Origin: Acidimicrobiia bacterium
Lineage (GTDB): Bacteria > Actinomycetota > Acidimicrobiia > Acidimicrobiales > Poriferisodalaceae
DNA length: 64,000 nt
Reading direction: 5' to 3'
NCBI GenBank assembly: GCA_022820925.1
Contig: JAJEEO010000006.1
Span: 62,001 to 126,000, forward strand
In this document: piece by piece, positions 36,393 through 63,998 of the stretch
How positions within the stretch are numbered: the stretch's first letter is position 1
Layout of the letters: each line of letters opens with the position of its first letter
Notes under the pieces: generated by a model
The model's input: only the letters and a program-made list of their open reading frames with translations
What the model was told of the DNA's origin: nothing
The model's database searches: none
Made by a program: the position numbers and the translations under genes

Positions 36393-36462
36393 TCGCCACC
36401 TACACCTTCCGCGTGACGAAGCGTCCGACGCTTTCGCGGCCCGGGGCGCACTCGAGCGCGTG

Positions 36463-36491
36463 TTGTCATTGAAACACATGGAAACTATTTG
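36463..36491 (+). promoter_or_regulatory. Candidate promoter of the hicA-hicB pair
   Basis: TTGTCA (36463-36468), a 17-base spacer and TATTTG (36486-36491) lie in a locally AT-rich stretch 60 bases upstream of the hicA start. The match is moderate; it is the only plausible pair in this gap. Confidence 0.35.
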
Positions 36492-36551
36492 AAATTGATT
36501 TGAAGACTTGAGATCATCGGCGCCTCGCGGGACCTTCGCAATGGAGGCAGA

Positions 36552-36809
36552 TTGACCGAATTCGAGAGAGTCCAAGAGATGCTCGCGAGGTGGAGGGTGA
36601 GCCCGACCGGGGTGCGCTTCTCCGATCTGTCCAAGGCGTGCCGCGTATACTTCGGGGAACCTCGGCAGCGGGGCAGCCACCTGATTTACCGGACTCCTTG
36701 GCGGGGCTTCCCAAGGGTCAACATCCAGAGCCACGGCGGAGAAGCGAAGCCGTATCAGGTGCGTCAGGTCCTGCGTGCCATCGACTTGATGGAGACCGGC
36801 AATGAATGA
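36552..36809 (+). CDS. hicA: HicA-like mRNA interferase toxin
   Basis: An 85-residue protein of the HicA fold. The dsRNA-binding-like core has RFSDLSKACRVYFGE, the catalytic His in RQRGSHLIYRTPW and the closing IQSHGGEAKPYQVRQVLRAID. HicA cleaves mRNA until bound by HicB. The start is TTG at 36552 with GGAGG just upstream (short spacing); ATG 36579 is an alternative that would cut into the fold. It overlaps hicB by 8 bases. The toxin-first gene order is the usual hicAB order. Confidence 0.85.
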   Translation: MTEFERVQEMLARWRVSPTGVRFSDLSKACRVYFGEPRQRGSHLIYRTPWRGFPRVNIQSHGGEAKPYQVRQVLRAIDLMETGNE

Positions 36810-37053
36810 TCCTGGGTTCCAGTATCGAGTGTCGTGGTCAGACGAGGATCATGCCTGGATCGGCGTGTGCAACGGGTTCTTGCTGGTGAGTCACATTGCA
36901 ACGACCGAGGCGGATTGCCTCCGCGGAATTCGTGCACTGGTGGACGACATCGTTGCGGACCTGCAACGCAACGGCGAGGCACTGCCTCGGCCACTCCCTT
37001 GGGATGCATTCGACGCTCCGCTTCTCGACTCGGCAGTCGGTACGACCAACTGA
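36802..37053 (+). CDS. hicB: HicB-like antitoxin
   Basis: An 83-residue HicB with the partial RNase H-like fold: YRVSWSDEDHAWIGVCNGF, a TTEADCLRGIRALVDDIVADL helix and the PRPLPWD tail. It should block HicA. The C-terminal DNA-binding domain found in many HicB proteins is absent, so autoregulation may be missing or performed otherwise. Confidence 0.82.
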   Translation: MNDPGFQYRVSWSDEDHAWIGVCNGFLLVSHIATTEADCLRGIRALVDDIVADLQRNGEALPRPLPWDAFDAPLLDSAVGTTN

Positions 37054-37123
37054 CCACACCGCTCAGCAACTGAGGCACACCGCCGCCGACTAGAAACCGA
37101 GGACCTGGTCGCAGCTGTCGTCG

Positions 37124-37567
37124 CTATGTAGACAATGCGAGCTGGTGCGAAATCTCGCCGTCGTTCTGGCGGAACATCGCCGAGCCCGACATCGACCAGT
37201 GCTTCGGGTACAGGTATGACACAGTCACCTGATTTCCAAGAGAACGCAACCGCCAGATAAACGGTTCAATGTCGCTAATGCCCGCTGCCGCGGCCCGAGT
37301 TCGAGCCGTCTTCAGCGTTGAGCGCACGCACTCGGCTTTGAACTTGTGCGGGGTCGTGCTGAACGGCACTCGGCGATGCTGCCAGCGCACGAACGGGACC
37401 AGCCACGCTGGCCACAACATGATGATTATCAGCAGCACACTGAGGTTGCTGCTGAACAAATTCCAGAACACCAGCGACCACAACGTTGTCGTGTAGCAGA
37501 GGAACCAAGCGATGTGTTCGCGGCGGTCCCGAGGGCCCGCGCTCAGCCAACGCCACCAGTTCTTCAC
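37124..37567 (-). CDS. Two-helix membrane protein of an unrecognised local family (intact copy)
   Basis: A 147-residue protein. Residues 1-15 are WWRWLS...RDRRE-like, residues 18-60 form two membrane helices (FLCYTTTLWSLVFWNLF, LLIIIMLWPAWLVPF), and the C-terminal part (65-147) is a basic soluble domain with TTPHKFKAECVRSTLKTAR, FIWRLRSLGNQVTVSYLYP and KHWSMSGS. A near-identical C-terminal domain is encoded 6.5 kb away on the other strand (43800-44150), and the N-terminal part is related to the proteins at 42981 and 43456. I know no characterised family that matches. Confidence 0.65.
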   Translation of the reverse strand: MKNWWRWLSAGPRDRREHIAWFLCYTTTLWSLVFWNLFSSNLSVLLIIIMLWPAWLVPFVRWQHRRVPFSTTPHKFKAECVRSTLKTARTRAAAAGISDIEPFIWRLRSLGNQVTVSYLYPKHWSMSGSAMFRQNDGEISHQLALST

Positions 37568-37655
37568 ACTTGGAAACTACATCGGCGCTTGCTTTCGGCA
37601 CCCGTCGGCTCGGCCTCTCATCGGTTTCTCATGATCGGCGTTCCAGAATGAGGCC

Positions 37656-38378
37656 ATGGGTGCTGATCGGCCGAGCGGTGCCAGCCCCGCAGTAGCCGTC
37701 GTCGACGACGATCAGCGCATCCGAGCGGCATTGCGCCGCGCCCTGCAGCTCGAGGGCTATGACGTGCTCGAAGGCAGCGATGGCCTCGAGGGCGAGGCGC
37801 TGGCTGGCCGGGCAGACGTGATGGTGCTAGATGCCACCATGCCGAACCTGGGCGGCTTCGAGCTGTGCCGTCGCCTGCGCGCCGCTGGGAGCCGCCTGCC
37901 GATCCTGCTGCTGACGGCCCGGGGCACCACGGCGGATCGGGTCGAAGGCCTTGATGCCGGTGCCGACGACTACCTGGCCAAGCCGTTCGCGCTCGACGAA
38001 CTGCTGGCTCGGCTGCGGGCGCTGCTGCGCCGGAGTGCCGGAGGCTCGTCGCCGGAGGAAAGCGAACGGCTCGCATGCGCCGGCATCGTGCTCGACACGG
38101 CCAGCTACGAGGTGACCTGCGCCGGCGAGCCCGTCACGCTGACCCGCACCGAGCATCGGCTGTTGGAGCTGTTCCTGCGCAACCCCGGCCGCGTATTGCA
38201 CCGCGACGAGATCTACGACACGGTGTGGGGCTACGACGCGTCGCTGGCCTCGAACTCCCTGGAGGTCTACGTCGGTTACCTGCGGCGCAAGCTCGCGGCT
38301 GCCGCAGCTACGGGCTCCGGCGGCCACAGCCCGGTCCAAACGGTGCGCGGCGTGGGATACGTGCTCCGACCCACATGA
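37656..38378 (+). CDS. OmpR-family response regulator (MprA-like)
   Basis: A 240-residue regulator. The receiver has VVDDDQRIR (acidic pocket), the phospho-accepting Asp in MVLDATMPNLGG and the Lys in DDYLAKPFALDEL. The C-terminal winged helix reads RTEHRLLELFLRNPGRVLHR, with SLEVYVGYLRRKL and the last wing VRGVGYVLRPT. It is the partner of the sensor kinase that overlaps it by 4 bases. By layout it resembles mycobacterial MprA/TcrA types; the signal and targets are unknown. Confidence 0.93.
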   Translation: MGADRPSGASPAVAVVDDDQRIRAALRRALQLEGYDVLEGSDGLEGEALAGRADVMVLDATMPNLGGFELCRRLRAAGSRLPILLLTARGTTADRVEGLDAGADDYLAKPFALDELLARLRALLRRSAGGSSPEESERLACAGIVLDTASYEVTCAGEPVTLTRTEHRLLELFLRNPGRVLHRDEIYDTVWGYDASLASNSLEVYVGYLRRKLAAAAATGSGGHSPVQTVRGVGYVLRPT

Positions 38379-39790
38379 GCTTCCGTACCCGGCTCGGGCT
38401 GCTGGTGGCAGCCTCGGTTGCCGTCGCCGTGCTGGCGGTCTCGGGGGTAGCGCTCTGGATTGCCCGAGCCGAGGCCCGGTCGGCGCTCGACCGCAAGCTG
38501 GACGACCGCGTTGCGGTGCTGGTCGCGAGCGGCGGGCGTCTGCCCGAGCGCCGCAGCGTGCAGTTCTTCGGGCGATTCGTTCCCCGGGACGTACTCGCCC
38601 AGATCGTGGCCCCGAACGGCGCAGTGGTGTACGCGTCTGACGAGGTGCTACCGGTAACACCCGCAGACGTTGCCGTGGCCAATGGCCGGGCTCGTCGGCA
38701 TCGAACCGATGTGTCAGCGGACGGTGTACGCCTGCGAGTGTTGACCGTGCCGGTAGCGCCCGTGGGAGCGCTGATGGTCGCCAGCCCGCTCGACGAGGTC
38801 GACGCGAACGTGGCGGGCCTGCGCAATGCGCTGGCTGTTGTGGCCGCCATCGGCGTCGCGGGAGCCGGATTGTTGGGATTCCTGGTGGCGGGCCGCGCCA
38901 TCCAGCCGGTTCGGCGGCTTACCGATGCGGCACGGAACGTCGCGCAGACCCAAGACCTGCACCAGCCCATCGAGCTTGAACGCGACGACGAGCTGGGCGA
39001 GCTGGCACACAGCTTCAACGCGATGCTGGAGGCCTTGGCGCTGTCGCGCGCCCAGCAGCATCGGCTGGTCACCGACGCAGGCCACGAGCTGCGGACACCG
39101 CTTACCAGCATCCGCACCAACATCGAATTGCTGGCTCGCAGCGAGCAGGCGGCAGCGCCAGCAGCGGATTCTGGCGACGCCCGCGGAGACGCAGTCGTCG
39201 CGCTCGATACCGATGAGCGCCGCCAGATGCTTGACGATGTCCAGTTCGAGCTCGACCAGCTCACCGAGCTGGTGAACGAGCTCGTCGAGCTGGCGACCGA
39301 CCAGCGATCCCAGGGCGAGCCGGAGCGCGTCGATCTGGCCGAGCTGGCTGCGTCGGTGGTGGACCGGCACCGCCGCCGGACCGAGACGGATTTTGTGACA
39401 GCGTTCGAGCCGTGCGAGGTGGTCGTGAATGCGGCGCTGGTCGAGCGAGCGATCGGCAACCTCGTCGACAACGCGGTGAAGTGGTCGCCACCCGGCGAAG
39501 CCATCGAGATCAGCGTTGCTGCAATCGACCGGGAGGCTCACGTCCGGGTGCGCGACCACGGACCGGGCATCCCAGCGGCCCTGCGTGAGACCGTCTTCGA
39601 GCGCTTCTACCGGGCTCCCGAAGCGCGCTCTCAGCCCGGTTCCGGCCTCGGATTGTCCATCGTCGACTACGTCGCTCGCAGCCACAACGGCTCAGCGTCG
39701 GTCATCGACACCGACGACCCCGGCACCACCGTCGAACTACGTATCCCGCTGACGGCCGAAGCCGATTCGCCCCCTGCCGACACCAGCTGA
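38375..39790 (+). CDS. Sensor histidine kinase (MprB-like)
   Basis: A 471-residue membrane kinase starting at ATG 38375. Two membrane helices (about residues 8-30 and 148-172) enclose a periplasmic sensor of roughly 115 residues. A HAMP domain follows (GRAIQPVRRLTDAARN), the phosphorylated His is in DAGHELRTPLTSIRTN, and the ATPase has NLVDNAVKWSPPG, RDHGPGIP and SGLGLSIVDYVA. It phosphorylates the response regulator upstream. Confidence 0.93.
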   Translation: MSFRTRLGLLVAASVAVAVLAVSGVALWIARAEARSALDRKLDDRVAVLVASGGRLPERRSVQFFGRFVPRDVLAQIVAPNGAVVYASDEVLPVTPADVAVANGRARRHRTDVSADGVRLRVLTVPVAPVGALMVASPLDEVDANVAGLRNALAVVAAIGVAGAGLLGFLVAGRAIQPVRRLTDAARNVAQTQDLHQPIELERDDELGELAHSFNAMLEALALSRAQQHRLVTDAGHELRTPLTSIRTNIELLARSEQAAAPAADSGDARGDAVVALDTDERRQMLDDVQFELDQLTELVNELVELATDQRSQGEPERVDLAELAASVVDRHRRRTETDFVTAFEPCEVVVNAALVERAIGNLVDNAVKWSPPGEAIEISVAAIDREAHVRVRDHGPGIPAALRETVFERFYRAPEARSQPGSGLGLSIVDYVARSHNGSASVIDTDDPGTTVELRIPLTAEADSPPADTS

Positions 39791-39962
39791 ACCTCAGGGG
39801 TGTGACAGACACTCGGTCATGATGTTGGGGTCAGCAGTTCGGGCCTGGGTCTGGCTCGTTCAGCTGGCCGGGCGGCCAGCAGTTCTTCAGTACGCTCAGC
39901 TTTCAATGAGCCGTTGCCACGATCGAGCCGCTCGTGCCGTCGAGACACACTCGCAACGCACC

Positions 39963-40383
39963 ATGCGGCTCGTCTACATGGCGGCGCTGACTGCCGTTCT
40001 GTTCATCACCCGCCATAGCACTGATGTCCCAGCCGTCTGGCTAGCGGCCCTGTGGATCATCGCGGGACTTGTAGCATCGCATACCGGCCAGTGGAACGCA
40101 GCAGACGCCGCAACGCGCTCGACCTGCGAGACCCAGGCGAGCGACCGCTGCGCCGAGGCGACTAGTCACACCTATGCGATCTGGGCCAACCGCGAGCCGC
40201 GGGCGCCGGTCACGCGCCGCCGCGGCTGGCGCGACTCCTGGGTCAATTGCGTTGCTCACGGCCGTCGTCATTGACGCTCACCCGCTCCTGATCCTGGTTT
40301 GTTTCGTGATCGCCGTCCTCGGCTGCATCGTCGCAGCACAGTCCAAGCGAGCGATGCCAGATCTGCGACGACCCAGCGACTAG
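39963..40383 (+). pseudogene. Possible frameshifted small membrane protein
   Basis: Two overlapping frames together look like one protein: the first (from ATG 39963) encodes two membrane helices (LVYMAALTAVLFIT, VWLAALWIIAGLVASH) and stops at 40274; the second, +1 relative to it, carries two more (SIALLTAVVI, LLILVCFVIAVLGCIVAA) and stops at 40383. No ribosome site is seen for either. It may instead be two tiny genes or none; I judge a frameshift near 40220-40245 most likely. Confidence 0.3.
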
Positions 40384-40755
40384 GCATCCGTCGCCGCTCG
40401 GGCGCCTACTGGCTGCCGGACACACTGAACCCATAGCCGCACCGGTTGTTTCGCGATCAGCGACGGCTTGCCTGTGATGGGACGATTTCTCTAAACCTGC
40501 AGGTCAGAAGCGCGTTTTGCAGTCTAAGAAACGTTCGTATCCTAAACAGCCCTTGCGAGCCTGTCAAGCCATCGTCTCAGCCGTTCGGTCGCTCGCTGTG
40601 ATTGTGCCCGTCACTGCCGCAATCTCGCGTACTCGCTGAGTTTCTGAAGCTCGTCGCTCTCTCGCGACGACCCGCCCGCGATTCCTCGCGTCAGCGCGTC
40701 CCACGCGTCCGTTCTGTCGAAGAAACGAATGATTCCTCGACAGAAAGGGACTGTC
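40384..40755 (+). promoter_or_regulatory. Upstream region of the exported protein, with a hairpin over the ribosome site
   Basis: No gene is seen in these 372 bases; part of it (40440-40570) is relatively AT-rich. At the end lies a long inverted repeat, TTCTGTCGA (40712-40720) and TCGACAGAA (40737-40745), which extends inward by GAA/TTC after one mismatch, leaving an eight-base loop. Its 3' arm runs into the ribosome site AAAGGGA (40744-40750), so folding could limit translation of the gene at 40756. Confidence 0.5.
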
Positions 40756-42324
40756 ATGACCGCTCGTATTGGCATTACCTGGAGAACCGCGGCAGCGCTT
40801 GCGGCAGTGGTCGTGCTGTTGCCGTTGCTGGTGTTCGTCGATCCGTCGCCGAGCTCGGCGCACAACCAGACCGTCAGGCGATGCGCCTTTGACCCGTTCG
40901 CGGGCCAGCAGTGCTGGAAGGAGTCGGTGAGCCACACTCACACCTCCAACAACTACTCGCCCCCGCCTGACACGTCGCCGCCCACCACGACAGCGCCGCC
41001 GCCCACCACTGTGCCGGTGCCGAACCACTACTCGCCTCCGCCTGACACGTCGCCCAGGCCGAAGACGTGCCCGGCGGGAACGACCGGCACCCCGCCGGAC
41101 TGCCTCCCGGTCCCGTCCGACAACACCCGCCACGCCAATAGCCAGAGGTGCCCGGCAGGAACGACGGGCACCCCGCCGGACTGCCTCCCGGTCCCGTCCG
41201 ACAACACCCGTCACGCCGACAACCAAGGCGACGGTTCCGACAGCTCAGACAGCAGCGACGGCGCTAAGGACGGCGGCGAGGGAGAGCCTGACGAAAGCGA
41301 CTCTGCCGAAAGTGAAGGCGGCGACTGCGAGAGCGACGACTGCGGTGATGAAAGCACGTCAGAAGGCGAGCCGGATCCCAGCGATGCCAAGAATCTCCGC
41401 AACGCCCAAGACAGCGGCACCACGAGTACGCAATCGGCGTGCCCCACGTTGCTGGGCACGCATCCGCATTTGGACCGTGAGCAGCACCGGCACGAACTGC
41501 AGTCCGGCACGATGGCGGACTGCCACGACGCGACACCGGGCCACCAGCACTCCGACGGGACCGAGGACACTAGCGACGGACCAAACTACAGCGGCGCCGG
41601 ACCCGCTCTTGAGGCGGCACTCGGCCGGGTCGGCGACCTGATCGCGACCGGCACCGCTGAGTCTCTCGAAGCAGCCCGCAGCGCCCTCGACAATATCGCG
41701 GCAGACGTGAGAGAGGACGTGCTGCGTGGTGTTGACGCGATCCGACGACTCAACGAAGAAATCGACAAGCTCTGGCGAAGGATTCCTGGACCCGCCAGGA
41801 CGTTCGTCGAGACCCTCGCCAAGGGTGTGGCATGCGGCGCTTTGGTCGCGGCGGCAGCCAAGAGCACCGTCGCCACCGCAGGCGCAGCAGCCCCGGCGTG
41901 GGTCGTGTGGGCCGCCAGCCCTCCGGGCCAATTGGTCCTCGGAGCTACATGTGCTGGCCTCATCGAGGCGGCTGAGGAGATCATCGGCGGCGACGATGAC
42001 AGTGGCGCCGACGGCGCCGACACGGCGCCGAGCACGCCCGAGCCGACCGACTCAGGCAAGCCTGCGCCGCCTACGCAGTCGGACAGCAATGTCGCTGACA
42101 ACCCGGAGCCGGCTGACTCAGGCAACCCCGAGTCGATCACGCCGCCGACTACAGCGCCGCCGTCAGACACGGTGACGGAGCAAGACTGGCGCCAGGCACG
42201 CGCAGAGTGGAAGCGGGGTCTGCGGCCACGATCTGACGTGGACCTGCTGTTCAATCGCTGGCTCTGCCAGCAGGGTTGGCAGAGCGCCTGCGACCTCGCC
42301 GATGGCATCGCCAACGGGCGATGA
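40756..42324 (+). CDS. Exported low-complexity protein, family not recognised
   Basis: A 522-residue protein starting at ATG 40756 behind AAAGGGA. A signal peptide (residues 1-38, hydrophobic AALAAVVVLLPLLVFV) is followed by Pro/Thr linkers with two copies of YSPPPDTSP, a 27-residue tandem repeat (CPAGTTGTPPDCLPVPSDN, residues 105-158), a very acidic Ser/Asp/Glu run, a His-rich patch (about 235-270), a helical part, a hydrophobic Ala-rich segment (350-395), a second Pro-rich linker and a Cys-containing tail (WLCQQGWQSACDLADG). It looks like a surface or wall-spanning protein; the function is unknown. The tail is duplicated at 42743-42874. Confidence 0.75.
   Translation: MTARIGITWRTAAALAAVVVLLPLLVFVDPSPSSAHNQTVRRCAFDPFAGQQCWKESVSHTHTSNNYSPPPDTSPPTTTAPPPTTVPVPNHYSPPPDTSPRPKTCPAGTTGTPPDCLPVPSDNTRHANSQRCPAGTTGTPPDCLPVPSDNTRHADNQGDGSDSSDSSDGAKDGGEGEPDESDSAESEGGDCESDDCGDESTSEGEPDPSDAKNLRNAQDSGTTSTQSACPTLLGTHPHLDREQHRHELQSGTMADCHDATPGHQHSDGTEDTSDGPNYSGAGPALEAALGRVGDLIATGTAESLEAARSALDNIAADVREDVLRGVDAIRRLNEEIDKLWRRIPGPARTFVETLAKGVACGALVAAAAKSTVATAGAAAPAWVVWAASPPGQLVLGATCAGLIEAAEEIIGGDDDSGADGADTAPSTPEPTDSGKPAPPTQSDSNVADNPEPADSGNPESITPPTTAPPSDTVTEQDWRQARAEWKRGLRPRSDVDLLFNRWLCQQGWQSACDLADGIANGR
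41068..41229 (+). repeat. Two tandem 81-base units inside the exported protein gene
   Basis: Units 41068-41148 and 41149-41229 differ at only a few positions and keep the reading frame, coding for two 27-residue Cys-containing repeats. Confidence 0.85.
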
Positions 42325-42352
42325 GCAAAGGAGAAACGGACAATGAGCACGT
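42195..42352 (+). repeat. Direct repeat, copy 1 (3' end of the exported protein gene)
   Basis: The last 130 bases of the gene and the following ribosome-site region match 42745-42902 at a constant offset of 550 bases. After copy 1 comes a ribosome site followed by a five-codon frame (ATGAGCACGTACTAA), a remnant of a gene start. Confidence 0.8.
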
Positions 42353-42435
42353 ACTAATGACGGTGGGGGGTTAGGGGTAAAGCCCAAGTGCAAGTGAGGG
42401 AACCGCAGGGGCTGCTAGCAGAAGGGAATCCGCCG

Positions 42436-42687
42436 ATGAGCAACGCATACAATCAGACCATGAGCACGGAGCGGCGCCCCGATCCGCCTGTGCCGAAGTT
42501 CGGGCGCATGTGGATGATCGCTGGTGCCTCCGCTTGCGTGGCCTCCTTCTTGTGGATCGGGGCCTACCAGACTGGCAGCGTTGTACTGCCGGTAGCTATG
42601 TGGGCCGCATTGCTGTCTTTCGGCATCGTGTCGTATAGACGGTTCAAGAAGCGGTATCGCAGCGAGAACGCACCTCGTCAAGGCTGA
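42436..42687 (+). CDS. Small two-helix membrane protein, unrecognised
   Basis: An 83-residue protein starting at ATG 42436 eight bases after GAAGGGA. It has a polar N-terminus, two membrane helices (MWMIAGASACVASFLWIGAY, VVLPVAMWAALLSFGIVSY) and a basic tail (RRFKKRYRSE). It lies between the two copies of the 158-base direct repeat. It resembles the neighbouring small membrane proteins in plan but not clearly in sequence. Confidence 0.55.
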   Translation: MSNAYNQTMSTERRPDPPVPKFGRMWMIAGASACVASFLWIGAYQTGSVVLPVAMWAALLSFGIVSYRRFKKRYRSENAPRQG

Positions 42688-42742
42688 GTGCCCGGCTGAG
42701 CCGGACTCAAGCACCGCTGTCCATCGTGGCTAGTGCTGGCGG

Positions 42743-42874
42743 CGGGCACGCGCTGAGTGGAAGCGGGGTCTGCGGCCACGATCTGATGTGGACCTGCTGT
42801 TCAATCGCTGGCTCTGCCAGCGAGGTTGGCAAAGCGCCTGCGACATCGCCGATGACATCGCCAACGGGTCATGA
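42743..42874 (+). pseudogene. Orphan duplicate of the exported protein C-terminus
   Basis: The frame here encodes a close copy of the last 43 residues of the 40756-42324 protein (RAEWKRGLRPRSDVDLLFNR, then a Cys-containing end) and stops at the equivalent TGA (42872-42874), but the rest of the gene is missing. It is the coding part of direct-repeat copy 2 (42745-42902). Confidence 0.75.
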
Positions 42875-42980
42875 ACAAGGGAGAAACGACCGTGACCACG
42901 ACGAGTTACTTGATCTTCATGAGGCCAAGTTCATGGAGCACCGGCGGCGCTTGCGCCGCCATGAGCGAAGGAGGCTGCAA

Positions 42981-43280
42981 ATGAACCAATTACAATCCGA
43001 CGACATGACCACCCCGCCTAGACCGTCGCTGTGGCAGCGCTGGCCGGGCCGGGATCGCCGCGAGCGCACAGTTTGGTTCGTGTTGACACTCGTTGGTGTG
43101 TGCGCGACCTCCGTAATGGTGCGCTGGACGATGCTGTCAGGCTGGCCGATCTGGGTCACGTTGCTGTTGGTCATTGCCTGGGGCTGTGTCGTGTTGACCT
43201 GCTGGTGCCTGTGGTGCCGGCGTTACACACCTGCTCGCACGCATGAGATCCCAAGGGATGAGCCGGCGCGAGTCGGCTGA
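42981..43280 (+). CDS. Small two-helix membrane protein of the local family
   Basis: A 99-residue protein starting at ATG 42981, six bases after AAGGAGG, so well supported as translated. It begins MNQLQSDDMTTPPRPSLWQR and has the family mark PGRDRRERTVWF before two membrane helices (FVLTLVGVCATSVMV, WVTLLLVIAWGCVVLTCW), ending in a polar tail. The QLQSDDMTT start and RDRRE mark are shared with 43456-43674, and RDRRE with 37124-37567. It lacks the soluble C-terminal domain of the 37124-37567 protein. Confidence 0.65.
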   Translation: MNQLQSDDMTTPPRPSLWQRWPGRDRRERTVWFVLTLVGVCATSVMVRWTMLSGWPIWVTLLLVIAWGCVVLTCWCLWCRRYTPARTHEIPRDEPARVG

Positions 43281-43326
43281 AACCACAGAAGTCCGCACAA
43301 CGGCACTAGCTGCCACTCTGTCTCGT
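43274..43326 (+). repeat. Local repeat module, copy 1
   Basis: A segment beginning CGGCTGAAACCACAGAAGT that recurs, diverged, at 43741-43794 (CGGCTGAGAACCCAGAAGT). Each copy directly follows one of the small membrane protein genes, so it marks the end of a duplicated unit. Confidence 0.65.
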
Positions 43327-43455
43327 CGTCGCTGGCGAGCACGGCGGAACTGGAGCGGCGTCAGGGGCCTGCAACCGGTCCCTGACGACGTTCTGCTGGT
43401 CTGCCACCTAGCGACACGGCCATGCACCCGCACCGCGCAATTGTCATCCGACGAC

Positions 43456-43674
43456 ATGACGACGTCGCCGCCATGGACGCGACGGCTGCGCTGGATGATG
43501 AAGCCCCGTGATCGACGCCAAAAGATCGTCGACTTCCTCATCATGCTGCCGCTCTGCGCGCTGACTTACCTCGTGGTCAACGACCTCGTTTTGGAGGCGT
43601 ATCCGGTGCCGCCGTGGTTCACCCCGCTGGCGATCCCGTTCATCGCCGCCACATTGATTGCGCATACTGCTTAG
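43456..43674 (+). CDS. Small two-helix membrane protein of the local family, N-terminal domain only
   Basis: A 72-residue protein. After MTTSPPWTRRLRWMMKPRDRR come two membrane helices (IVDFLIMLPLCALTYLVV, FTPLAIPFIAATLIA). DNA just upstream (CAATTGTCATCCGACGACATG) matches the start of the 42981 gene, but the strong ribosome site is missing. It stops before the soluble domain found in 37124-37567, whose counterpart lies further on at 43800-44150. It is probably the front half of a disrupted gene, though still intact as a two-helix protein. Confidence 0.45.
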   Translation: MTTSPPWTRRLRWMMKPRDRRQKIVDFLIMLPLCALTYLVVNDLVLEAYPVPPWFTPLAIPFIAATLIAHTA

Positions 43675-43740
43675 TCCTGGCGGCGTTCGCGGACCGCAGC
43701 CGGTTCCAGCGTCGCCGACAGCGCCTGAGCGTTTGCGCGT

Positions 43741-43794
43741 CGGCTGAGAACCCAGAAGTGCGCACAGCGGCAGCGGCCACCTTGCTGTCGTCGA
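43741..43794 (+). repeat. Local repeat module, copy 2
   Basis: Second copy of the module at 43274-43326. It lies between the separated N-terminal and C-terminal halves of the disrupted family gene. Confidence 0.6.
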
Positions 43795-43799
43795 TGTAG

Positions 43800-44150
43800 A
43801 TCGTCCGGTTCGTGCGCTGGCAGCGTCGCAGAGTGCCGTTCAACACCACCCCGCACAAGTTCAAGGCCCAGTGCGCGCGCTCAACGCTGGAGACGGCTCG
43901 AACCCGTGCTGCAGCCGCGGGCATCGACGGTGTTGAGCCGTTCATCTGGCGGTTGCGTTCTCTTGGTAATCAGGTGACCGTGTCGTACCTGTACCCGAAG
44001 CACTGGTCGATGTCGGGCTCTGTGGTGCACCGCGAAAACGCCGGCGAGATATCGCACCAGTTCGCTTCGATCCCATTGAGAAGGCGCTTCTGCAGAGAGG
44101 TGCGCGGCGCAGCCGCCTGCGAGATCGCACGTCAATACGGAGGAAACTAG
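43800..44150 (+). pseudogene. Detached C-terminal domain of the local membrane family
   Basis: Reading from 43800, directly after an in-frame TAG (43797-43799), the frame encodes IVRFVRWQRRRVPFNTTPHK and then almost the whole soluble domain of 37124-37567 (RSTLETARTRAAAAGI, FIWRLRSLGNQVTVSYLYP, KHWSMSGS), followed by a new basic tail. The DNA is very similar to the minus-strand copy. A GTG at 43812 could start it, but there is no good ribosome site. It is most simply the remnant of a gene broken by duplication of the 43741-43794 module. Confidence 0.6.
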
Positions 44151-44159
44151 GAGAACGCC

Positions 44160-44432
44160 GTGAACTACCCTGAGTCCATGAGCGTCGACGCCGAGACGGT
44201 GACTCCGCCCACGTTCTGGGAGGCGCTTCGCGAGGAGTTCACCTCGTGGAAGTGCATTGCTATCAATGTGGCGTCGACAGTGGGGTGGCTGCTTGTGTAT
44301 TACCTGACGGGCAGCATCTTGGCGGTGGTTGCGGTGGCCGTCGCCTTCGTGGTTCTCGGAGTTGCACACGAGTGGGTAAAGAACAGGCGCCGCGCCGCTC
44401 GCCAGGCAACGAAGGCTTCGTGTCCCACATAG
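44160..44432 (+). CDS. Small membrane protein, unrecognised
   Basis: A 90-residue protein starting at GTG 44160, six bases after AGGAG. It has a polar N-terminus (MNYPESMSVDAETVTPPTFW), two closely spaced helices (CIAINVASTVGWLLVYYLTG, ILAVVAVAVAFVVLGVAH) and a basic tail. It follows the detached family domain by 10 bases and has the same general plan as its neighbours. Confidence 0.6.
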   Translation: MNYPESMSVDAETVTPPTFWEALREEFTSWKCIAINVASTVGWLLVYYLTGSILAVVAVAVAFVVLGVAHEWVKNRRRAARQATKASCPT

Positions 44433-44472
44433 TTCGGGCGCCGTGGGTGCGCTACGGGCGTCCTAGCACTCG

Positions 44473-44652
44473 ATGAACTCGGGCGCCGAAGACCTCGCGC
44501 AACAAGGCATCTGGCGATTCCTGGCGTTGCTCGCCGCCCCGATCTACCTGATCTGGCAGCATCCGGCTGTGCTTGCTGTCCTCGTCGGCACATGCGCTGG
44601 CGTCCTATGGCTTGTTGACCGCCGGCGCAGCAGCGACGAACAACAACCTTGA
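44473..44652 (+). CDS. Short membrane protein, unrecognised
   Basis: A 59-residue frame from ATG 44473 to TGA 44650: MNSGAEDLAQQGIWRF, then a hydrophobic stretch (LALLAAPIYLIW) and a second one (AVLAVLVGTCAGVLWLV), ending DRRRSSDEQQP. Plan and position fit the other small membrane proteins of this cluster. No strong ribosome site is seen, so it is a candidate only. Confidence 0.4.
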   Translation: MNSGAEDLAQQGIWRFLALLAAPIYLIWQHPAVLAVLVGTCAGVLWLVDRRRSSDEQQP

Positions 44653-44739
44653 TCGTCGCAAGGAGCAGTCCACCGCGAACAACGAGAGCAGCGTCAGGCG
44701 GAACGCAGCGACGGGCGCGTGACGAAGCGAGAGCGGGGC

Positions 44740-45438
44740 TCAGGCCGAAACGTTGCCGATCGTCGGCAACTCATTGGTTTGGCGGATGTGGTCCTGGCCG
44801 CTCTTGAGGAGGGCGGCGGCGCTGGAGTGGTGCCAGGTGGTCTTGCCGGTTGCAGTGAGGATGCCTGCGACCTCGAGTGCTGCTGCAATCTCACGCAAGC
44901 TGTAGCCCTCGGCATGGAGTTGCCTGGCGAGGGTTCGGGCCTCCTCGGGCTGGCGGCTGGGCCTGCCGAGCTGTTTGCCGTTGCGTTGGGCCGACTGCAA
45001 GGCTGCGATCGTGCGGGCGCGGGCCGACCCGGCTTCGTGGGCAGCAATGACAGCCAGGATTCCGACCAGCAAGCGTCCGTCATGGGTCTTGGTGCCCTCT
45101 GGAGCATCAAGGGTGATCAACTCCCACCCCAGGCGCTCGGCCCGGTCAAACAGCAGCAGAGTTTCCAGCGTGTCGCGAGCGAGGCGGTCGATGCGCGTCG
45201 CGACAAGTGCATCTGCGTCACCGTGCTCGAGTCGTGCGAGTGCGGCGCGAAGCCCGGGCCGTTCGTCAACGGGGACTGCTCCCGAGATTGCCTCGTCGGT
45301 GACGCACTCGATCACTCGCCATCCGCGTGCCGCGGCCGCTTCGGTGATGGCTCGGTGCTGGGCGTCGATGCTGAGACCGGAGGCAGCTTGGGTGCCGGTC
45401 GACACGCGGGCGTAGGAAATGACCTGCTTCGCCTCCAT
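44740..45438 (-). CDS. Serine recombinase (resolvase/invertase family)
   Basis: A 232-residue recombinase. The catalytic domain opens VISYARVSTGTQAASGLSID with the nucleophile Ser13 and has the Arg cluster LVATRIDRLARDTLETL near residues 78-94. The C-terminal part (about 165-215) is a helix-turn-helix (LHAEGYSLREIAAALEVAGI). I start it at the Met (45438) before this; the frame is open further upstream. Length fits small resolvases and invertases of mobile elements, not the large phage integrases. Direct repeats lie just upstream, and tRNA-Glu 170 bases away. Confidence 0.88.
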   Translation of the reverse strand: MEAKQVISYARVSTGTQAASGLSIDAQHRAITEAAAARGWRVIECVTDEAISGAVPVDERPGLRAALARLEHGDADALVATRIDRLARDTLETLLLFDRAERLGWELITLDAPEGTKTHDGRLLVGILAVIAAHEAGSARARTIAALQSAQRNGKQLGRPSRQPEEARTLARQLHAEGYSLREIAAALEVAGILTATGKTTWHHSSAAALLKSGQDHIRQTNELPTIGNVSA

Positions 45439-45483
45439 CGGGTACGTTCGTTCATGCACAAATGGCAACATAGCATCTGCGAA

Positions 45484-45509
45484 TGAATGCTTGCACATGA
45501 ATGTTTGCA
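45484..45509. repeat. Direct repeat upstream of the recombinase gene
   Basis: TGAATGCTTGCA (45484-45495) and TGAATGTTTGCA (45498-45509) differ at one base and start 14 bases apart. The surrounding 60 bases are AT-rich and carry further partial copies (ATGCACAAATG). This is the right place for an operator or a recombination site of the neighbouring resolvase. Confidence 0.45.
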
Positions 45510-45606
45510 GCAACTCCACTGCTGATGCTCGACACCTCGACGCACTTCTGAGGGAATGCACCTGAGAAGGTGCGGCATGAGTCCCACCACTGCGACCGTG
45601 CTGGCG

Positions 45607-45679
45607 CACCCCCAACGGGATTCGAACCCGTGCCGCCGGCGTGAAAGGCCGGTGTCCTAGGCCGCTAGACGATGGGGGC
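45607..45679 (-). tRNA. tRNA-Glu (TTC anticodon)
   Basis: Reverse complement: acceptor GCCCCCA/TGGGGGT (first pair G-U), D arm region TCGTCTAGCGGCCTAGGA, anticodon stem CCGGC/GCCGG around CTTTCAC (anticodon TTC), T arm ACGGG TTCGAAT CCCGT, discriminator G. CCA is not encoded. Its 5' end faces clpS and its 3' end faces the recombinase and accessory cluster. Confidence 0.94.
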
Positions 45680-63880: not shown

Positions 63881-63900
63881 AATCCGCTGTGTCCTTTCTT

Positions 63901-63998
63901 CGGCCTAGAGGCCGCTGTGTCGATTCTTCGGCCTAAAGGCCGCTGTGTCGATTCTTCGGGCTAAAGCCCGCTGTGTTGTTTCTTCGGCCTAGAGGCCG
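63901..63998. repeat. Array of hairpin repeats with an exact 28-base period
   Basis: Four 14-base palindromes start at 63901, 63929, 63957 and 63985, exactly 28 bases apart: CGGCCTAGAGGCCG, CGGCCTAAAGGCCG, CGGGCTAAAGCCCG and CGGCCTAGAGGCCG. The linker CTGTGTCGATTCTT is nearly constant. In unit 3 both stem arms change together, so pairing is conserved. The array begins just upstream of ccdA and is cut by the window end. Confidence 0.9.

Follow-up and report, generated by a model that had tools for sequence, protein, structure and literature searches.

In Staphylococcus aureus, the type VII secretion system (T7SS) exports TspA, a polymorphic membrane-acting toxin whose gene has variable membrane immunity genes (TsaI) directly downstream (PMC9484751, PMC7456083), and membrane immunity genes flank a 3' fragment of the toxin gene at that locus (PMC9484751). 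In CDI and Rhs loci, orphan modules lie downstream of the full-length gene; these are silent, start-less gene fragments, each followed by a small immunity gene, and a conserved block is the anchor for recombination (PMC3150448, PMC3967940). The S. aureus esaG and streptococcal tipC arrays consist of immunity genes that combine conserved blocks with a variable interior and recombine as tandem paralogues (PMC9484751). The T7SS glycine-zipper toxins TelE (PMC10434224) and EsxX (PMC12744356) carry a Gly-rich hydrophobic segment that acts on membranes.

The locus analysed here lies in a stretch of 64,000 nucleotides from an Acidimicrobiia bacterium (the window), where a gene for an exported protein is followed by several small membrane genes (Table 1). 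A repeat search found a 153-nt block covering the 3' end of the exported gene in two gap-free copies of 92% identity, with a start spacing of 550 nt. The copies are the only two in the entire assembly, and the second is recovered with E = 1.2e-57 in the whole-assembly search; therefore, a chance origin of the repeat is excluded. An earlier note on this DNA had described such a duplication at a constant 550-base offset, with a single intact small membrane gene between the copies and the start of a membrane gene behind each, and all of this is borne out. In our view, the repeat probably represents an orphan tail module, part of a polymorphic system of exported toxins and their immunity proteins that expands and swaps its parts via the conserved tail.

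Table 1. Features of the locus, in window coordinates
Feature	Position	Strand	Evidence or remarks
Solitary membrane gene similar to those of the island; lies in the smaller, second insertion, past the response regulator gene	37124..37567	-	Comparison with congeners
Genomic island between histidine kinase gene and tRNA-Glu	39760..45605		Missing at the orthologous position in G002, G003, G005, G006, G007, G009 and G010; other content in G004 and G001
Exported protein of mosaic build (522 aa), with signal peptide, DPFAGQQCW motif, CPAGTTGTPPDC repeats, a hydrophobic middle between cysteines, and the tail domain	40756..42324	+	Paralogue alignments; without a match in Pfam, NCBIfam, PADLOC or PHROGs
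Tail copy 1: C-terminal three-helix domain and next 14 nt	42186..42338	+	Repeat search, tail profile; AlphaFold tail model pLDDT 91
Five-codon stub, degenerate membrane-gene leader	42343..42357	+	Sequence compared with leaders in relatives
mem1, intact small membrane gene, 83 aa from 42436	42436..42687	+	TACAAT-N6-ATG, promoter-like, puts start at ATG 42460
Tail copy 2: orphan tail domain, predicted untranslatable	42736..42888	+	Repeat search; tail HMM E 3e-9
mem2, small membrane gene	42981..43280	+	TACAAT-N8-ATG upstream of second ATG
mem3, diverged mem2 copy	43438..43674	+	72% over 57 nt; flanking repeat 43259/43726, 72% over 64 nt
Decayed copy of membrane gene 37124-37567	43778..44065	+	84% over 288 nt, inverted
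mem5, small membrane gene	44160..44432	+	TACCCT-N6-ATG; 31% to membrane protein of a relative in L035
Serine recombinase, resolvase family, ~231 aa from internal start	44740..45435	-	PF00239 E 4e-34; tied to such pairs genus-wide
tRNA-Glu(TTC), island boundary	45606..45679	-	Rfam and comparison

The two copies differ at 13 positions, 11 of them upstream of the stop codon. Copy 2 falls within an open frame of 46 codons (42734-42874) that has an in-frame TAG ahead of it, and the earliest possible start codon that can be read in it is the GTG of the RSDV motif, so that neither a signal peptide nor the whole tail could be translated; as judged from its reading frame, copy 2 is a silent, untranslatable remnant. 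The earlier note took copy 2 for the last 43 residues with frame and stop kept. Frame and stop are indeed intact despite the 13 differences, but the retained part comprises about 45 residues and is a domain rather than an arbitrary tail. Copy 2 begins at the tail domain boundary and retains exactly one structural unit of the exported protein, the three-helix C-terminal tail with its two invariant cysteines, and no further part of the protein is duplicated. Behind copy 1 the stub reads ATG AGC ACG TAC TAA, and behind copy 2 a GTG-started leader (GTG ACC ACG ACG AGT TAC ...) ends at a TGA that overlaps the ATG of mem2. Both look like degenerate versions of the start region of a membrane gene.

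Alignment of the paralogues shows a conserved front, consisting of the signal peptide and RRCAYDPFAGxQCWNE (with the DPFAGxQCW motif), then CPxGxTGTPPxC repeats and acidic linkers, a variable middle, and a conserved tail of about 45 residues at the C-terminal end. The middle usually contains a Gly/Ala-rich hydrophobic stretch bounded by two invariant cysteines and is probably membrane-inserting or membrane-attacking; since it was modelled poorly (pLDDT ~60), its putative insertion in the membrane rests on hydropathy and composition. The tail was modelled with confidence as three helices (pLDDT 91), with blocks above 90 also within the longer model. Within the exported gene, an 81-bp in-frame tandem repeat (41063-41224, 91%) encodes CPAGTTGTPPDCLPVPSDNTRHA. 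Immediately upstream of the gene, at 40712-40745, lies the palindrome TTCTGTCGA-N16-TCGACAGAA, a possible operator or RNA hairpin, which is present in the G001 locus too. A separate family of exported proteins of 830-990 aa (L025, L031, L050, L059) has a similar DPFAG..CW motif at an internal position.

Searches of the exported protein, the membrane proteins and the tails against Pfam, NCBIfam, PADLOC and PHROGs gave nothing convincing, and no known toxin or immunity protein was matched by sequence or fold. A PDB sequence search with the middle-plus-tail profile returned only helical-bundle chance matches (E 0.09 or worse), and the fold search with the confident tail model gave none below E 5. 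We did not adopt the names SHOCT or EF-hand for the tail, as the best matches were E 0.02 (SHOCT, 5 of 16 tails) and 0.005 (EF-hand, 3 of 16) and the window tail matches neither. Assignment of the exported protein to CdiA or Rhs was likewise rejected, given that neither filamentous haemagglutinin or Rhs repeats nor a VENN motif or Rhs core was found and Pfam, NCBIfam and PADLOC gave no match; so was a T7SS LXG or TspA toxin, for which there is no Pfam or NCBIfam domain match and a signal peptide is present instead.

The family is confined to one of the 203 sampled genera of the order. The conserved N-terminus occurs in nine of ten congeneric genomes with at most nine matches per genome, and the tail profile recovers 53 tails in nine of the eleven genomes searched, counts that are lower bounds, with many family genes at contig ends. 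A scan of the genome collection with the N-terminal alignment gave 31 loci in MAGs of the Acidimicrobiia type, named as uncultured Acidimicrobiia, Acidimicrobiales and Acidimicrobiaceae; a query with the complete exported protein gave zero matches. One further, weak locus, in an unrelated Defluviitaleaceae MAG (E 4e-4), was set aside as a probable chance match. The family was not found in viral contigs or plasmids.

Many tails lie outside full-length genes. At six loci (L026, L032, L035, L037, L038, L045) and in the window, some tails terminate full genes and others stand alone close to such genes, a few of the orphans carrying pieces of the middle; orphan tails recur in three genomes other than that of the window. 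Whether it belongs to a full-length gene or is an orphan, each of the 38 tails that extend to the end of the domain has a small ORF behind it for which one or more membrane spans are predicted and which mostly starts 11 to 60 nt after the tail; the window is an exception, as mem1 starts 111-135 nt past tail 1. The sequence TANNNT-N6-ATG precedes 29 of these 38 membrane genes, against 0.36 in resampled sequence and 0.8% for random windows of 140 nt. It has the form of an actinobacterial leaderless promoter; in Mycobacterium tuberculosis, 73% of primary start sites have a TANNNT -10 motif ahead of them, and leaderless genes make up 26% of those that have a primary start site (PMC3898074). Among the membrane genes of the window, mem1 and mem5 have the motif in front of them, as does mem2 with a spacing of eight bases. 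At their 3' ends, otherwise unrelated membrane genes (e.g. L027, L032, L033, L037) have identical last codons and following DNA (GGGGTTTCGTCGGGCTGA), a shared end that, on this likeness, is a putative second conserved cassette boundary.

Several members of the window are decayed: copy 2 is silent, the stub is broken, and both mem3 and the copy at 43778-44065 are degraded. This is what would be expected if island turnover had left an ordinary tandem duplication, with no functional meaning in either the second tail or the conservation of tails. As an account of the window copy passive decay may hold, yet it leaves the family unexplained: the layout of tail plus membrane gene recurs with different sequences at many loci in several species, and copy 2 starts at a domain boundary. 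We regard it as very unlikely. In the earlier note, the cluster was proposed to expand through copying of a unit that joins the tail of the exported protein to a membrane gene, in the manner of toxin-immunity loci. The 38 tails, the recurrence of orphans and the co-variation of middle and membrane protein described below support this.

Among 25 full-length units, the similarity of middles predicts that of membrane proteins with the tail held constant (partial r 0.86, 0/5000 permutations), and with near-identical units removed the partial r is 0.74 (0/5000 permutations); these permutation tests lessen the effect of shared ancestry but leave some phylogenetic dependence. In the dereplicated set the membrane protein tracks the middle (r 0.73) and not the tail (r 0.01), and the middle does not follow the tail either. 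In the pairs L040(-)/L049 and L038/L045, for instance, middles (73% and 69%) and membrane proteins (72% and 57%) match and tails differ. The coupling has exceptions: a single type of membrane protein stands behind three middles that differ from one another (two are orphan remnants), and in L027/L037 the middles are 58% identical and the membrane proteins dissimilar. Tails are more alike within genomes than between them (3/2000 permutations), while middles and membrane proteins show no greater within-genome likeness in the same comparison. Such a pattern of co-variation and local homogenisation is expected if pairs move from one species to another and the homogenisation of tails is local.

Co-variation with the middle would also be seen for a partner protein in a family of variable surface proteins or adhesins, in which the tail would be a domain for envelope attachment or sorting, the membrane protein an anchor, chaperone or export partner, and the middles varied for interaction with host or phage. 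The low-complexity acidic linkers of the family fit such a role, as do the EF-hand-like loops in several tails and the weak EF-hand and SHOCT matches. A general anchor, however, should track the tail, whereas the membrane proteins track the middle; orphan membrane genes are kept, with promoter-like motifs of their own; and the short variants of the exported protein consist of a signal peptide and a Gly-rich hairpin bounded by cysteines, with little else. We therefore think a surface role unlikely. Four such short proteins with a cysteine-containing Gly-rich hairpin were found, at L085 4247-4657(-), L088 775-1260(-), L121 6325-6777(-) and L124 6526-6918(-), each with a small membrane gene directly behind its own gene and a small lipoprotein gene next in line, and three of the four loci adjoin the recombinase. 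The hairpin and membrane pairs look like a minimal version of the system.

The exported gene and its membrane genes lie on an island of 5.85 kb that is flush with the tRNA-Glu gene. In seven congeners the histidine kinase gene directly adjoins tRNA-Glu, with nothing of the island in between. The island is absent from G008 too, making eight relatives in all. The position flush with the tRNA gene and the empty site in relatives fit a tRNA-borne island; no flanking direct repeats (att) were recognised in the alignment of its junctions. In G004 and G001 the same place is taken by genes for another short exported protein that has a Gly-rich hairpin, for a membrane protein and for a small lipoprotein. 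The content of the site was predicted to vary, and it does so between species (one genome each): it is empty in seven and holds another exported and membrane pair in two. Linkage to a tRNA was dropped as a general rule, as most other arrays have no tRNA close by, and the Rfam search of the window returned tRNA only. A second insertion relative to most congeners, at 36398-37605, contains the solitary membrane gene together with a gene for a HicA-like toxin (PF07927 E 2e-5, slightly below the cut-off) and a small partner gene, and is shared by G001 up to 37101. At 63884-63995 there are four tandem copies of a 28-bp unit (CCGCTGTGTCGATTCTTCGGCCTAAAGG).

The recombinase of the island belongs to the resolvase/invertase superfamily (PF00239, 118 bits against a cut-off of 23). 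It has 15 relatives in eleven genomes, of which nine are no more than 2 kb from a family gene and another three adjoin short exported-plus-membrane pairs. The tRNA-Glu site of G004 has a close relative (79% DNA identity), and G001 has a recombinase fragment on the contig at the tRNA side. The island could be a mobile element of this enzyme, with the tail repeats or the conserved sequence before the membrane genes as crossover sites for site-specific movement of cassettes. Linkage to the pairs throughout the genus accords with this, as do the lack of both recombinase and exported family in G010, the position of the recombinase at the tRNA-Glu end in G000 and G004, and the inversion in G008 of the segment between the two insertion sites. 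Against it, alignment of the junctions revealed no recognisable target duplication and no short crossover site common to them, a recombinase is missing from the neighbourhood of many arrays, and the repeats are long enough for ordinary homologous recombination. We give this explanation hardly any credence. The inverted segment, seen in the comparison of 37599-39774 with L086 (G008:C1:42200-52000), carries the regulator and histidine kinase genes, which in the window are enclosed by the two arms of an inverted repeat (84%, 37137-37424 / 43778-44065) that could promote such a flip.

Under the toxin-immunity reading that we prefer, a full gene would give rise to a secreted protein with a conserved front, a variable hydrophobic middle and a three-helix tail, with its immunity protein encoded directly after it. 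The middle would be toxic, and the small membrane protein probably protects the producer. Conserved tails and shared membrane-gene ends would be the anchors for homologous recombination, the presumed copying route, by which tail-plus-immunity units are duplicated and middle-plus-immunity pairs swapped between species; duplication and exchange at these anchors would add immunity genes and swap toxins, with a putative contribution of the recombinase. In the window, one such duplication would have left the silent second tail, and the membrane genes, having promoter-like motifs of their own, would still provide immunity. Paralogues combine a conserved trafficking part with a variable effector part, the downstream gene co-varies, and orphan fragments come with the candidate immunity genes, as in polymorphic toxins. 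A more far-reaching version is possible but rather doubtful: weapon-switching restricted to one genus of uncultured Acidimicrobiia, in which internal toxin cassettes with conserved ends are exchanged via silent tail modules, a leaderless promoter for each immunity gene keeps old immunities, and a dedicated serine recombinase drives movement or inversion of the cassettes.

The exported protein, its tail and the small membrane proteins have no model in Pfam, NCBIfam, PADLOC or PHROGs, yet many divergent copies exist in the genus. These genus-wide, mix-and-match gene pairs look like a previously undescribed form of bacterial weaponry. If they are true toxin-immunity pairs, an actinobacterial lineage builds and renews its weapons from signal-peptide proteins with a conserved block behind the variable part. 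As the co-variation already matches candidate toxins with candidate immunity proteins, the idea is directly testable in laboratory strains.

Compared with the described systems, the window shares with TspA/TsaI the variable membrane genes directly downstream of a polymorphic, putatively membrane-acting protein, and the arrangement of tail copy 2 resembles the toxin-gene fragment between immunity genes. In contrast to TspA, which is secreted by the T7SS and is variable in its C-terminal part, the proteins described here have a signal peptide and an internal variable part followed by a conserved tail, and their sequence is unrelated as far as tested. With the CDI/Rhs modules the locus has in common start-less, silent fragments that are followed by small candidate immunity genes, and a conserved block as the likely anchor; the anchor there (VENN or Rhs core) precedes the toxin, whereas here it would follow it, and two-partner secretion and Rhs repeats are absent. 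The tandem membrane genes recall the esaG and tipC arrays, though these encode unrelated immunity proteins of known toxins and repeat the immunity genes alone. The Gly-rich hydrophobic segment recalls TelE and EsxX, which differ in export route and architecture and give no sequence match. On this comparison, TspA/TsaI and the CDI/Rhs orphan modules appear to be the closest precedents, neither of them a relative by any test run.
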